A stretch of DNA of 64,000 nucleotides, from contig JAXHMM010000017.1 in NCBI GenBank assembly GCA_034521445.1, positions 186,001 to 250,000 on the forward strand, written 5' to 3'. This document shows, piece after piece, positions 4,056 through 45,814 of the stretch (positions are counted from its first letter, which is position 1; each line of letters opens with the position of its first letter). The stretch is from Balneolaceae bacterium (GTDB lineage Bacteria; Bacteroidota; Rhodothermia; Balneolales; Balneolaceae). Under the pieces are notes generated by a model. The model saw only the letters and a program-made list of their open reading frames with translations, had not been told where the DNA came from and did not search any database. Position numbers and translations under genes: made by a program.

Positions 4056-4913
4056 TCAAAGCAGCAGTGCCATGGCGAGTATCGCCAATACAATGCCCGC
4101 CCACTGCCGGCGGCTTACCCGGTCTTTCCAGACCGCCAGTCCCAGCAGGGTGCCCCCCAGCACAATAAGGGCATTGACCGCCGGAAATGCCACCGCCCCG
4201 TCCATGCCGCGCAGGGCACGAATGAGAAAGACGCCTGAATAGAGGTTGGGCAGGCCTATGAGCGCTCCCAGGACCACTTCACGGGGACGGGGCCAAGCCG
4301 ACCGGCGGATGGCGAGCATGACTAACCCGATAAGGAAAGCGGACAGGAAGATCATGCCCATAAACTGCACCTCCCCGAACACCCCGCCGAACTCCTCCTG
4401 ATAGACCTTCAGCGCGGAATCGGCCAGCCCGGTTAGCAGAAAGATGCCCGCCAGCATCCACCCCGCGTCCACCCCGCGTATCCAGCTTCGACTTCTCTTC
4501 GGCACCAGCAGAAGCAGCGCAAAAAAGACGCCGGCGATGCCCGCGCCCTTCAGCGTCGTCAGGCTCTCCCGGTAAACCGCCAGCGAGAGCAGTACCGGGA
4601 AAAAGAGGGAGACGCGCATGGCCGCCACGGTGACCCCTACGCCGTTGAGGTGCACCGACTTGCTGTAGAGGACGAAGTTGAGGATAAAAAAGGCCCCGGT
4701 GAGGGCGCAGAAAATAAGTGGAAGCGGCGTGAATAGGGTGTGGAGGACGGACCCTGCGAGGGGATCGAGGGCCAGTGCGATGGCGGCGGCCACGAGGTAG
4801 TTTACCGTGAGGGTGGGCAGGGTGCGCATCTGCCGGTGTTCGCAGACTTTCAGCAGGTGGGCGATGAGCAGGGAGCATCCTGCGCTGAGCAGCAGGTAGA
4901 GCCAGGCCATCAC
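4056..4913 (-). CDS. EamA/DMT-family membrane permease
   Basis: This 285-aa protein is almost entirely hydrophobic, with about ten predicted membrane segments arranged as two EamA halves, as in the drug/metabolite transporter superfamily. Its start overlaps the stop of the pseudo-caspase lipoprotein gene by 4 bp (ATGA), so the two are translationally coupled. The substrate cannot be deduced: DMT proteins carry amino acids, nucleotide sugars and many other small molecules. Neighbouring sugar-nucleotide genes do not decide it. Confidence 0.82.
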   Translation of the reverse strand: MMAWLYLLLSAGCSLLIAHLLKVCEHRQMRTLPTLTVNYLVAAAIALALDPLAGSVLHTLFTPLPLIFCALTGAFFILNFVLYSKSVHLNGVGVTVAAMRVSLFFPVLLSLAVYRESLTTLKGAGIAGVFFALLLLVPKRSRSWIRGVDAGWMLAGIFLLTGLADSALKVYQEEFGGVFGEVQFMGMIFLSAFLIGLVMLAIRRSAWPRPREVVLGALIGLPNLYSGVFLIRALRGMDGAVAFPAVNALIVLGGTLLGLAVWKDRVSRRQWAGIVLAILAMALLL

Positions 4914-11481: not shown

Positions 11482-11512
11482 TTTAATTTCTCACCGGATA
11501 GCGCTATTTTCG
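11482..11512 (+). promoter_or_regulatory. Candidate metG promoter
   Basis: TTT, 20 bases, then TATTTTCG at 11505-11512, matching the Bacteroidota -7 consensus TAnnTTTG at seven of eight positions with a weak -33. If used, transcription would begin at about 11518, so the GACTTNNN repeat array would occupy the whole metG 5' UTR. Confidence 0.4.
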
Positions 11513-11513
11513 C

Positions 11514-11602
11514 GAACTTCCGACCTCCGGACTTCCGGACTTTTGGACTTTACGACTTCCCGACTTTAAGACTTCCCGACTTATTAGACTTATTAGACTT
11601 TA
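11514..11602 (+). repeat. GACTTNNN tandem octamer array in the metG leader
   Basis: There are eleven consecutive units. Each begins GACTT (first two degenerate: GAACT, GACCT) followed by a variable triplet such as CCG, TTG, TAC, CCC or TAA. Units 1-8 are exactly 8 bp; units 9 and 10 are identical 9-mers (GACTTATTA). The last, truncated unit GACTTTA abuts the metG ATG directly. A matching 12-unit array precedes the nitrilase gene at 45682-45780 in the same sense orientation. The pentamer is conserved while the spacer varies, unlike a recently slipped microsatellite. Confidence 0.85.
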
Positions 11603-13645
11603 ATGAAACGAACCCTAGTAACATCCGCCCTCCCCTACGCCAACGGTCCCCTGCACCTGGGACATCTCGCCGGCGCCTACCTGCCGGCCGATCTTTTCGT
11701 GCGCTACCGGCGCATGCGGGGCGACGACATCCTCCATATATGCGGCTCCGACGAGCACGGGGTGCCCATCACCCTGGCCGCCGAGAAGGAAGGGGTGGCG
11801 CCGCAGGACATCGTGGACCGCTTCCACGAGATGAACAAGAAGTCCTTCGCCGAATTCGGCATCGATTTCGACTACTACGGGCGCACCAGCTCGAAGGTGC
11901 ACTACGAGACCTCCCGGGCCTTCTTCACCAACCTTCATGAGAAGGGCGTATTCCGCGAGAAAGTGGAGGAACAGCTCTACGATGAGGAGGCGGAGATGTT
12001 CCTGCCCGACCGGTACGTGAAGGGCACCTGTCCGAACTGCGGCTACGAGGAGGCCTACGGGGACCAGTGCGAGAAGTGCGGCTCCTCCCTCTCCCCCACC
12101 GAACTGATCGACCCGCGCAGCGCACTCACCGGCAAGGTGCCCCAGACACGCACCACCCGCCACTGGTACCTGCCGCTGGGCGATTTCCAGGAGCGTCTGG
12201 AGAACTGGCTGGAGAGCCGCACGAACTGGAAGGCCAACGTGCGGGGACAGGTGCAAAGCTGGCTCAATGAGGGCCTGGCCGACCGCGCCGTGACGCGCGA
12301 CCTCACATGGGGCGTGCCCGTCCCATTGGAGGAGGCCGATGGCAAGGTGCTCTATGTATGGTTCGACGCACCCATCGGCTACATTTCGGCCACCAAGGAG
12401 TGGGCCGCCGGCACCGGCGATCCGGAGGCTTGGAAACGCTACTGGCAGGACGAGGAGACCGAACTCCTTCACTTTATCGGCAAGGACAACATCGTCTTCC
12501 ACTGCATCATGTTTCCCGCCATGCTGATGGCCCACGGCGACTACGTGCTGCCGGAAAACGTGCCGGCCAACGAGTTCCTGAACCTGGAGAGCCGCAAGCT
12601 CTCCACCTCCCGCGGCTGGGCGGTCTGGCTGCGCGACTACCTGGAGGATTTCGAGGCCGACCTGCTGCGCTATGTGCTGGGCACCATCCTCCCCGAGTCG
12701 AAGGATTCCGATTTTACCTGGGGCGACTTTCAAAACAAGGTGAACAGCGAGCTGGCCGATGTGCTGGGCAACTTTGCCCACCGCACCCTCTCGTTCACCC
12801 TCAACTACTTCGACGGGAAGGTACCCCCACTGGAGGAGCCCGCCGAAGCGGACCGGGACATGCTGTCACGGATCGCCGCCCAGCGCGAACGCATCGCCGA
12901 ATGCTATGAGGCCTTTCGTCTGCGGGAGGCCATCGCAGAGACCATGAAACTGGCCCGCGCGGGGAACAAATATTTTACCGACCGCGAGCCCTGGCATACC
13001 CGCAAGAGCGACCGGCAGACCTGCGGCAACACCCTGCACGTATGCCTGCAGGTAACCGCAGCCCTCTCTTCCCTTTTCGACCCTGTCATGCCCGCTAAAA
13101 TGGGCGAACTTCGCCGCCAGCTGGGCCTCGGCGAGGCGCTGCCCTGGCAGGAGATCGGTCCCGCCATCCTCAGCGCAGGCGAGCCGGTGAGGGAGGGAGA
13201 AATCCTGTTCGAAAAAATCGAGGACACGGCCATTGAAGTCCAGCTGGAAAAGCTGCGCGCCCGGTCCGGGGAGGACGGCGACGCAGAAGCGGAGCCGGAG
13301 ACGGAAGACTACGAGCCCCTCAAAGAGCGCATCTCCTACGACGAATTCGCCAGACTCGACATGAGGGCGGCGCGCATCCTATCCGCCGAGCCCGTGGAAG
13401 ATGCCGACCGCCTGCTCAAGCTGAGAGTGGACCTCGGATTTGAAGAGCGCACGGTGGTGGCCGGCATCGCCGGGCACTACCGCCCCGACGAACTGGAGGG
13501 ACGCATGGTCTGCGTGCTCGCCAACCTGGAGCCGCGCACCCTTTTCGGCATCGAAAGCAACGGGATGGTGCTGATGGCCGAGGAGTCCGACGGAGGACTG
13601 AAATTCCTGTCCGCCGATGCGCACCCCGGCAGCACCGTAGCCTGA
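11603..13645 (+). CDS. metG: Methionyl-tRNA synthetase
   Basis: It charges tRNA-Met. The 680-aa protein has the class I HIGH-like HLGHLAG near residue 20, a zinc knuckle with CPNCGYEEAYGDQCEKCG near 135-152, and the KMSKS counterpart KLSTS. The anticodon-binding alpha-helical domain follows. A C-terminal EMAP/Arc1p-like OB-fold tRNA-binding domain starts near 580 (YDEFARLDMRAARILSAE), as in the dimeric bacterial form. A Glu/Asp-rich linker precedes that domain. The ATG is immediately preceded by the GACTTNNN array, with no Shine-Dalgarno sequence. Confidence 0.97.
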   Translation: MKRTLVTSALPYANGPLHLGHLAGAYLPADLFVRYRRMRGDDILHICGSDEHGVPITLAAEKEGVAPQDIVDRFHEMNKKSFAEFGIDFDYYGRTSSKVHYETSRAFFTNLHEKGVFREKVEEQLYDEEAEMFLPDRYVKGTCPNCGYEEAYGDQCEKCGSSLSPTELIDPRSALTGKVPQTRTTRHWYLPLGDFQERLENWLESRTNWKANVRGQVQSWLNEGLADRAVTRDLTWGVPVPLEEADGKVLYVWFDAPIGYISATKEWAAGTGDPEAWKRYWQDEETELLHFIGKDNIVFHCIMFPAMLMAHGDYVLPENVPANEFLNLESRKLSTSRGWAVWLRDYLEDFEADLLRYVLGTILPESKDSDFTWGDFQNKVNSELADVLGNFAHRTLSFTLNYFDGKVPPLEEPAEADRDMLSRIAAQRERIAECYEAFRLREAIAETMKLARAGNKYFTDREPWHTRKSDRQTCGNTLHVCLQVTAALSSLFDPVMPAKMGELRRQLGLGEALPWQEIGPAILSAGEPVREGEILFEKIEDTAIEVQLEKLRARSGEDGDAEAEPETEDYEPLKERISYDEFARLDMRAARILSAEPVEDADRLLKLRVDLGFEERTVVAGIAGHYRPDELEGRMVCVLANLEPRTLFGIESNGMVLMAEESDGGLKFLSADAHPGSTVA

Positions 13646-16272: not shown

Positions 16273-17626
16273 ATGTTTGACAAGATCCTTATTGCCAACC
16301 GGGGCGAAATTGCCCTCCGCATCATCCGCACCTGCAAGGAGATGGGCATCAGGACGGTGGCCGTATACTCCACCGCAGACCAGGACAGCCTCCATGTAAA
16401 GTTCGCCGACGAGGCCGTCTGTATCGGTCCCCCATCCAGCAAGGAGAGCTATCTTAAGATTCCCAGCATCCTGGCAGCCGCCGAGATCACCAATGCGGAG
16501 GCCATTCATCCCGGCTACGGCTTCCTCTCCGAGAACGCCGATTTTGCCCGTATCTGCGGGGAGCACGACCTTACATTCATCGGCCCCTCCCCCGACAGCA
16601 TTCAGCGCATGGGCGACAAAGCCAGTGGCCAAGAATACCATGATCAACAGCGGCGTGCCGGTGGTGCCCGGCAGCGACGGGGAGGTCACCGACCCGGAGG
16701 AGGCCAAAAAAATCTGTGCCGACATCGGGTATCCCGTTATTATCAAGGCCTCGGCGGGCGGCGGGGGACGCGGCATGCGCATCGTCCATGAAGAAGAAAA
16801 GCTGGAACAGGCCTTCGACACCTGCCGCAACGAAGCCGAGACCGCCTTCGGCAATCCCGGCGTCTATATCGAAAAGTTTGTGGTCAACCCGCACCACGTG
16901 GAGATACAGGTAATGGGTGACCGGCACGGCAACGCCGTGCACCTGGGCGAACGCGACTGCTCCCTGCAGCGCCGTCACCAGAAAATTCTGGAGGAGGCCC
17001 CCTCCCCCCTGCTCACCCCCGAGCTGCGCGAGGAGATGGGACAGGCCGCCGTGGACGCCGCCCTTTCGGTAGACTACGAGGGCGCCGGCACCGTGGAATT
17101 CCTGGTGGACGCCGACCACAACTTCTATTTCATGGAGATGAACACCCGCATCCAGGTGGAGCACCCGGTCACCGAGGAGATCACCGACTGCGACCTGGTG
17201 GCCGAACAGATCAAGGTGGCCGCCGGCATGGAGCTGAACCTGGGACCCCTGAAAATGCGGGGGCACGCCATCGAATGCCGCATCAACGCCGAGGACCCCG
17301 CTCACAACTTCCGCCCCTCTCCCGGCACCATCACCGTATTTCATCTTCCGGGGGGACACAGTGTGAGGATGGACACCCACGCCTACTCCGGATACCGCAT
17401 ACCCCCGCACTACGACTCCATGATCGCCAAGCTCATCGTAAGCGCCTCCACCCGTGAGGAAGCGATCAACCGCATGCGACGTGCCCTTTCTGAATTCGTG
17501 GTCGAGGGCGTAAAGACCACCATCCCCTACCACCTGCAACTGATGGACGACGAGAATTTCCGCAGAGGCACCTTCCACACCAAGTACCTCGAAAACGAGT
17601 TCACCTACCGCAACCCCGAATCCTAA
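16273..17626 (+). CDS. accC: Biotin carboxylase of acetyl-CoA carboxylase (frameshifted)
   Basis: This ATP-grasp enzyme carboxylates the biotin of AccB. The first 117 codons ([21 protein letters not shown]...) run in one frame to GDKA at 16623. The rest, [16 protein letters not shown] onward, lies in the +1 frame from 16625 to the stop at 17626. Removing the A at 16624 restores a continuous enzyme of about 450 aa with the expected GDKA-x-AK motif, the ATP-loop [12 protein letters not shown], and the catalytic [15 protein letters not shown] region. Because accC is essential and both halves are undamaged, a sequencing or assembly insertion is the simplest explanation. Confidence 0.9.
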
Positions 17627-24183: not shown

Positions 24184-24225
24184 TACCGTTTATGGATTAC
24201 ATGATACCGTTTATAGATTACATGA
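24184..24225. repeat. 21-bp direct tandem duplication upstream of the barrel gene
   Basis: TACCGTTTATGGATTACATGA is immediately repeated as TACCGTTTATAGATTACATGA, one mismatch in 21. It lies 11-52 bp before the start of the barrel gene, in the only gap between it and the phosphatase gene. Two head-to-tail copies 21 bp apart, two helical turns, fit a cooperative activator or repressor site. A simple duplication is the alternative. Confidence 0.8.
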
Positions 24226-24264
24226 TTTGGTACGGAACCACCCGGCGGAATGTTGCAGGGCAAG

Positions 24265-44879: not shown

Positions 44880-45695
44880 CTACAGCCTGCGGTGTTTCAG
44901 CGAGGGAAGGGCGCGGCGCACCTCTTCCAGGCGGACCGGGTCCAGCTCCGCGACGGCCATGCCTGTCCCCTCGGGTTTTTCGGCCGATATCTCCCCCCAG
45001 GGGTCCGCTATCAGGGCGTGTCCGAAAGTATGCCGGTTATCCCCGTGCCGCCCGTGCTGGGCGGCGGCCACCACCCAGCAGGTGTTCTCGATGGCGCGGG
45101 CGCGCAGCAGCGGGTGCCAGTGCGCCTGACCGGTGGTGCGGGTAAAGGCCGAGGGCACCAGCAGCATCTGGGCCCCGCGGTCCGAGAGCGCGCGGTAGAG
45201 CTCGGGAAAACGCAGGTCGTAGCAGACCGAAAGGCCCACAGCGCCCGTTTCGGGATCTTCCGACACCGTCGGTCCCCCCTGCCCCGGCGCGATGAAGTCC
45301 GATTCCCGGTAGGACTCTCCACCGGGCAGATCCACGTCAAACAGGTGCATCTTGTCGTAGGAGGCGCGCAGCTCCCCGTCGGGTCCCACCAGCTCCGAGC
45401 GTGCGAAGATCAGTCCCCCGGGCGCCCCATCCGGCTCGGGATAGGTGCCTCCGGCAATCCAGATATCAAATTCCGCGGATGTTTCCCGCAGGAAGGCGCG
45501 GCTGCGCGAGGCAATCTCCGCCGCCCGCCCGGCGCGTTCCTCCGGGCGCGCCATCCAGGAGAAGTTTTCGGGGAGGCAGGCCATGCGGCAGCCCTCGAAG
45601 GCGGCCTGGCGCACCAGCCGGTAGGCCTGGTCCAGGTTGTAGTCCAGGTCGGGCTGGCTGTTCATCTGCAGGGCGGCAACCTTCAAAGTCTTCAA
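44880..45695 (-). CDS. Nitrilase-superfamily amidohydrolase (Nit1/omega-amidase-like)
   Basis: This is a 271-aa carbon-nitrogen hydrolase. The Glu-Lys-Cys triad is in CLPENFSW, YDKMHLFDVDLPGG and VCYDLRFPELYR. The last two resemble the Nit branch (deaminated-glutathione amidase/omega-amidase), which removes ammonia from 2-keto amides. There is no ATG start. The frame offers TTG at 45695 (MKTLKVAALQM) or TTG at 45686 (MKVAALQM). Both lie inside the terminal units of the GACTTNNN array, so the repeat forms the translation start. It converges with the DUF445 gene 10 bp away. Confidence 0.88.
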   Translation of the reverse strand: MKTLKVAALQMNSQPDLDYNLDQAYRLVRQAAFEGCRMACLPENFSWMARPEERAGRAAEIASRSRAFLRETSAEFDIWIAGGTYPEPDGAPGGLIFARSELVGPDGELRASYDKMHLFDVDLPGGESYRESDFIAPGQGGPTVSEDPETGAVGLSVCYDLRFPELYRALSDRGAQMLLVPSAFTRTTGQAHWHPLLRARAIENTCWVVAAAQHGRHGDNRHTFGHALIADPWGEISAEKPEGTGMAVAELDPVRLEEVRRALPSLKHRRL

Positions 45696-45780
45696 AGTCG
45701 GAAAGTCTTAAAGTCAGAAAGTCTTGAAGTCGGAAAGTCGGGGAGTCGGTAAGTCCAGAAGTCCTAGAAGTCCTAAAGTA
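45682..45780 (-). repeat. GACTTNNN tandem octamer array leading into the nitrilase gene
   Basis: Read on the nitrilase strand there are twelve units, ten with intact GACTT (the most upstream is TACTT, one is GACTC). Spacing is 8 bp for nine of eleven steps and 9 bp for two. The last two units (GACTTTGAA twice) contain the TTG start codons of the nitrilase. The variable triplets include TCC, TAA, TCT, CAA and ACC. The array fills the gap between a terminator (45784-45814) and the gene, and is in the same sense orientation as the metG array. Confidence 0.85.
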
Positions 45781-45783
45781 AGA

Positions 45784-45814
45784 AAGGCCGTCCCGAGAGT
45801 CACGGGACGGCCTT
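45784..45814 (-). terminator. Intrinsic terminator of the amidohydrolase operon
   Basis: A perfect 12-bp stem, AAGGCCGTCCCG / CGGGACGGCCTT, has a 7-nt loop. Reading leftwards it is followed by a broken T-tract (TCTTACTTT). It ends the three-gene amidohydrolase unit that stops at 45856. Just upstream, 45832-45845 holds the perfect palindrome TGCGCCATGGCGCA, which may be an additional stem. Confidence 0.75.

Follow-up and report, generated by a model that had tools for sequence, protein, structure and literature searches.

Polar GACTT word arrays dispersed at gene boundaries in a Balneolaceae genome

Results

Two arrays in the window

The window, the whole 64,000-nucleotide stretch of Balneolaceae DNA that was analysed, carries GACTT arrays at the starts of metG and of a nitrilase-family gene (Table 1). 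MetG matches NF001100 over residues 1-679 of 680. Reading of the sequence at 11530-11600 gives the exact units, separated in order by CCG, TTG, TAC, CCC, TAA, CCC, ATTA and ATTA; the last is followed by TA and then by the metG ATG at 11603, so that the array does reach the start codon as the first-pass annotation had it. Its count of eleven units holds if the two imperfect units are included, the exact units alone being nine. The promoter-like box that it placed before the array is also there: a -7-like box that is seen in relatives precedes both array and ATG, and several array-free relatives have TATTTTCG or a TATCTTCG-like box ahead of their metG. The array is placed between TATTTTCG and the ATG, where several relatives have a comparable box and leader without it, and 0/19 relatives carry an array before metG.

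The second array ends at the nitrilase start as had been described, with ten exact units and one GACTC in place of the twelve claimed. By eye, it begins directly after a terminator-like hairpin. The product of the adjoining gene is nearest to deaminated glutathione amidase, under the curated cut-offs, and its start is probably the TTG at 45686-45684 within the last repeat unit, judging from the N-terminal reading M-K-V-A-A-L-Q-M. The arrays lie far beyond chance: the window has nine matches to three units, whereas 100 dinucleotide shuffles gave none. No known RNA family was found in the window at gathering thresholds, and a literature text search for the octamers returned nothing relevant. Neither array is special to metG or to the nitrilase-family gene; that at metG is one of about 90 in the genome and not a metG switch. 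Elsewhere in the window, the 21-bp unit TACCGTTTATAGATTACATGA occurs twice, nearly perfectly, at 24184-24226, in a region that is otherwise GC-rich.

Table 1. Features at the two array-bearing loci (window positions)
Feature	Position	Strand	Basis
TATTTTCG, putative -7-like promoter box upstream of the metG array	11505..11512	+	sequence; boxes in relatives
Two degenerate first units, GAACTTCC (11514) and GACCTCCG (11522), C-rich array start	11514..11529	+	sequence
Nine exact GACTT units, steps 8,8,8,8,8,8,9,9	11530..11602	+	sequence
metG, methionine--tRNA ligase	11603..13645	+	NF001100 and TIGR00398 above cut-off
Nitrilase-family gene	44880..45686	-	NCBIfam deaminated-glutathione-amidase models, below cut-offs
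Second array, ten exact GACTT units and one GACTC	45686..45772	-	sequence
Hairpin and T-run just before the second array, intrinsic-terminator-like	45779..45813	-	by eye

The array family in the genome

The source genome (3.2 Mb, 18 contigs) contains 251 exact three-unit GACTT matches and none of the reversed control pattern. With duplicates and coding arrays removed, these resolve into 88 non-coding arrays of 620 exact units in about 67 gene gaps, a list that may lack a few places beyond C5:163 kb whose sole triple match has a T-initial and then a C-initial spacer. Gene contexts come from extracted stretches in which the arrays were located and genes were called with a home-made codon-score script. 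The genome has one tandem word at many dispersed intergenic sites and related words are rare, as in a short-word repeat family; in the window and the array-free stretches no pentamer other than GACTT is strongly over-represented at a spacing of 8 bp. Conservation of the pentamer with divergence of the spacer, first noticed at metG, extends to the whole set. About 97% of interior units are perfect and the few with a single mismatch are mostly GACTC, while spacers vary across the 88 arrays in length (375 of three bases, 103 of four and 18 of two) and in sequence. Among three-base spacers the first position is a pyrimidine in 372 of 375, and G is rare at the second.

The 67 array-bearing gaps comprise 21 convergent, 42 codirectional and 4 divergent gaps, against 39, 189 and 43 in a background made up of the window outside its arrays and stretches picked as array-free (convergent, OR 2.7, p=0.002; divergent, OR 0.34, p=0.047). 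The GACTT strand has its 3' end at a median distance of 1 bp, and its 5' end at one of 49.5 bp, from a gene boundary, and it enters its nearest boundary from outside whether this is a start or a stop codon. A scan of the genome had been proposed with the expectation of sense arrays before start codons; array ends in fact meet stop codons about twice as often as they meet start codons (59 to 26). Arrays are single at 47 of the 67 places and form outward pairs at the other 20; neighbouring arrays within 150 bp face outward in 20 cases out of 20. The two arms are typically joined by a CACC/CGCC or GGTGGACCTTCG-like core, often of 4 bp. Spacers are C-rich and short near the array start and AT-rich and longer near the 3' end, their G+C content falling along the array from about 0.5 to below 0.2. 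This gradient is the same at start codons, at stop codons and far from both, and therefore belongs to the array itself; an origin in nearby start or stop codons is excluded.

Arrays within coding sequence

Several genes have their end within an array, which adds a few array-encoded residues to the product, for example LKSLKSIKS or KVFKS. In MtnA and GlmM this tail lies beyond the end of the nearest equivalog models (TIGR00512 and TIGR03990). In-frame arrays also lie in an N-terminal region that resembles IF-2 (recognised by reading, with no Pfam match), in a tail after ribosomal protein S16 and in the linker between two E2 lipoyl domains; at these three sites they encode SESPEVEE-like acidic repeats. 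What the array sites share is an apparently dispensable spacer bounded by functional elements. The spacer occupied runs from promoter box to ATG at metG and from terminator to start codon at the nitrilase-family gene, and elsewhere consists of gene ends or the acidic linkers and tails of essential proteins.

Relatives and other genomes

Among 38 family and order relatives we found one stray three-unit match only, which rules out the arrays as a trait of the whole family, and 80 kb from each of four relatives held no comparable array. Within the assembly itself, C3:636157-656156 and C12:7.9-28 kb are syntenic stretches, 81-92% identical, that probably represent two congeneric strains in one metagenome bin. 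Each carries an array at the corresponding position, and the two arrays agree in their outer units on one side and differ in their inner units.

Three-unit matches recur, at lower density, in 36 of 61 Mucilaginibacter genomes (control 0), where array pairs again face outward (10:0). Arrays persist at the same place and in the same orientation across Mucilaginibacter species, and at the recR promoter they have been gained or lost between species; the recR-promoter arrays end in GACTA at a near-fixed distance before the -7 box. A variable loop of RecN holds in-frame GACTT arms, CCCCTAAAGGGG-type inverted repeats or nothing, depending on the species, and this loop, near residues 396-423, appears as a hot spot or tolerant site for differing inverted repeats. 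Comparison of three RecN orthologue pairs gave 6/75 at pentamer sites, 5/27 at spacer sites and 26/120 in the flank, which is suggestive only of constraint on the pentamer because choosing intact pentamers biases the comparison. Mucilaginibacter oryzae also has another word family with the same outward layout (stretch positions 17069-17195), in which CCTTT is followed by two variable bases; its array pair lies between a promoter and a stop codon.

GACTT octamer tandems are present in many other genomes and are mostly homogeneous. A Planctomycetota MAG has GACTT pairs that are homogeneous yet outward-facing. An exception to the outward rule is a Prevotellaceae MAG (stretch positions 4368-4537) with inward GACTT arrays beside CTAACYGT octamers. 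As the search itself used GACTT, the shared word alone does not prove common descent across phyla.

Discussion

Our results describe a family of word arrays that enter gene boundaries from outside, and we tentatively favour, with confidence just short of even, their interpretation as a dispersed repeat family that is built on a short word and polar in layout. The family, probably neutral or selfish, would sit in dispensable DNA, and its pentamer would be kept by a copying or binding activity. This interpretation builds on direct observation that the arrays are dispersed and polar, carry a gradient, are neutral as to strand, occur within coding sequence and have been gained or lost between species. 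Arrays would grow, or be replaced, inside dispensable DNA until they meet something essential, and growth would take place at the core. The pentamer would be retained because a binder or copier of the arrays reads the word, leaving the spacers to drift. Against the dispersed-repeat interpretation, we found neither a mobiliser nor a clean empty site nor a target duplication. Mobilisation by a RAYT was rejected, as PF01797, the Y1 transposase model, has no match in the source genome and matches 5 of 14 control genomes. Below-chance complementarity between paired arms (0.486 for spacers against 0.576 +/- 0.034 by chance) also argues against arms made by simple inverted duplication. The first-pass annotation's alternative of a mobile leader cassette survives in its mobile part, dispersal, and not in the leader.

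The main rival to the dispersed-repeat interpretation is a host-functional DNA-binding array, which we regard as unlikely while still a serious contender. By analogy with other direct-repeat sites, a protein oligomerising head to tail may nucleate at the C-rich core and run to the gene boundary, so as to mark, insulate or organise gene ends. Such a protein would be consistent with near-perfect pentamers beside free spacers, with arrays that carry their own polarity and gradient and lie at either end of genes without regard to strand, and with persistence at orthologous Mucilaginibacter sites; indeed, for site persistence across Mucilaginibacter and the near-perfect pentamers, host function fits at least as well as neutrality. 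It sits less easily with spacers of 2 to 4 bases that show no helical phasing, with relatives that keep the same genes without arrays and with arrays inside coding sequences, and no binding protein was identified. Bidirectional RNA hairpins, in which paired arms would base-pair in 5-bp blocks and the resulting stem would terminate or protect two convergent transcripts, appear improbable. Paired arms do occur in 12 of the 21 convergent gaps and outward pairs can fold (about -26 to -64 kcal/mol), but most places have no partner arm and ordinary hairpin-plus-T terminators already adjoin some arrays. Because complementarity of the spacers is below expectation, neither arm is a simple inverted copy of the other, and the idea of a hairpin whose arms co-evolved or co-vary finds no support.

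Two further explanations have much less to recommend them. An ordinary minisatellite that arose by replication slippage and mutated afterwards is a poor prospect despite the tandem form and the homogeneous GACTT octamer tandems of many other genomes. Adjacent spacers resemble one another no more than they do after shuffling within arrays (30 identical neighbours against 26 +/- 4), which rules out recent slippage as the source and agrees with the earlier argument from the metG array; nor would slippage leave the pentamer intact with spacers nearly randomised, or impose a fixed outward polarity and a gradient. Poorer still is the proposal made from the metG leader that a multimeric RNA-binding protein, by analogy with TRAP, may read a sense-strand 5' leader. 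Both arrays of the window are indeed sense and end at start codons, the -7 box known from relatives precedes the metG array, and the TAACTGA repeats of Beggiatoaceae have been read similarly (PMC4679880). Against this, arrays favour the stop side, single arrays in codirectional gaps show no strand preference (16 sense toward the next start codon, 19 antisense toward the previous stop codon), many of those on the start side have their first unit no more than about 6 bp from the stop codon before them, arrays also lie inside coding sequences, and the metG leader array is not conserved in relatives. A sense-strand RNA reader cannot be general given the start and stop counts, the strand neutrality and the outward pairs, and the orientation counts rule out leader-specific RNA regulation as the general function.

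A more novel possibility is that the arrays make up a class of genome element of their own, occurring in distant Bacteroidota and possibly Planctomycetota. Polar arrays of one or a few words per genome would extend from a core in both directions to the adjoining gene boundaries, and a dedicated factor would write or read them, fixing the pentamer and leaving the spacer free. We consider this a rather unlikely prospect. Bacterial short-word intergenic repeats have been noted before, hitherto without explanation, and the present genome offers a clean case, in which a single word makes up about 90 arrays that have free spacers, a composition gradient of their own and a strictly outward polarity. 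These features argue against recent slippage and sense-leader regulation and narrow the testable mechanisms to a few. A trans-acting reader or writer, if there is one, would represent a new kind of sequence-specific activity at gene boundaries; if there is none, these repeats colonise several kinds of dispensable DNA, down to the linkers of IF-2 and E2.

Among known systems, the STRR of heterocystous cyanobacteria are short degenerate tandem words with a 7-bp unit, dispersed through intergenic DNA and species-specific. Tandem form and intergenic dispersal are common to both; the GACTT unit differs from the 7-bp STRR unit, and the GACTT arrays add outward polarity and a gene-boundary rule, neither of which STRR are known to show. 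REP/BIME elements, with their RAYT transposases, are extragenic and enriched at gene 3' ends and in convergent gaps, as the GACTT arrays are, whereas the latter lack a REP hairpin consensus in a genome without a Y1 transposase. Rickettsia palindromic elements are single palindromes of about 100-150 bp, found between genes and in frame in the loops of housekeeping proteins, and their mobiliser is not known. The GACTT arrays are likewise inverted, dispersed and in frame at tolerant coding sites that vary among species (RecN; IF-2-like, S16 and E2). Rather than a palindromic unit of conserved length or sequence, their arms are direct-repeat arrays of variable length, with one arm at most sites, and paired arms have no complementarity beyond the pentamers. 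A related review is PMC2229807. Other features of the arrays thus recur in STRR, REP and Rickettsia palindromic elements, but for the REP and Rickettsia types the arrays fail at least one defining test here.

BldC is reported to bind direct repeats as cooperative multimers (PMC5859096), and the sites of BldC or RdfS (PMC5859096, PMC11963761) resemble the arrays as polar, direct-repeat DNA of variable length, a resemblance limited to the possible mode of reading. The nearest published case is the TAACTGA heptamer, which forms direct repeats in Beggiatoaceae, cyanobacteria and a few Bacteroidetes (MacGregor 2015, PMC4679880), with about 170 dispersed intergenic sets, a sporadic distribution across phyla and no explained function. 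Both systems have one short word per genome in dispersed intergenic sets that often touch start codons, overlap ORF ends and in a few cases lie inside ORFs (PMC4679880). The TAACTGA unit is a fixed heptamer that in Beggiatoaceae is mostly sense and just before start codons (PMC4679880). In contrast, the GACTT arrays combine a pentamer with a variable spacer, use start and stop sides alike without that sense bias before start codons, and are distinguished by their outward pairs and spacer gradient.
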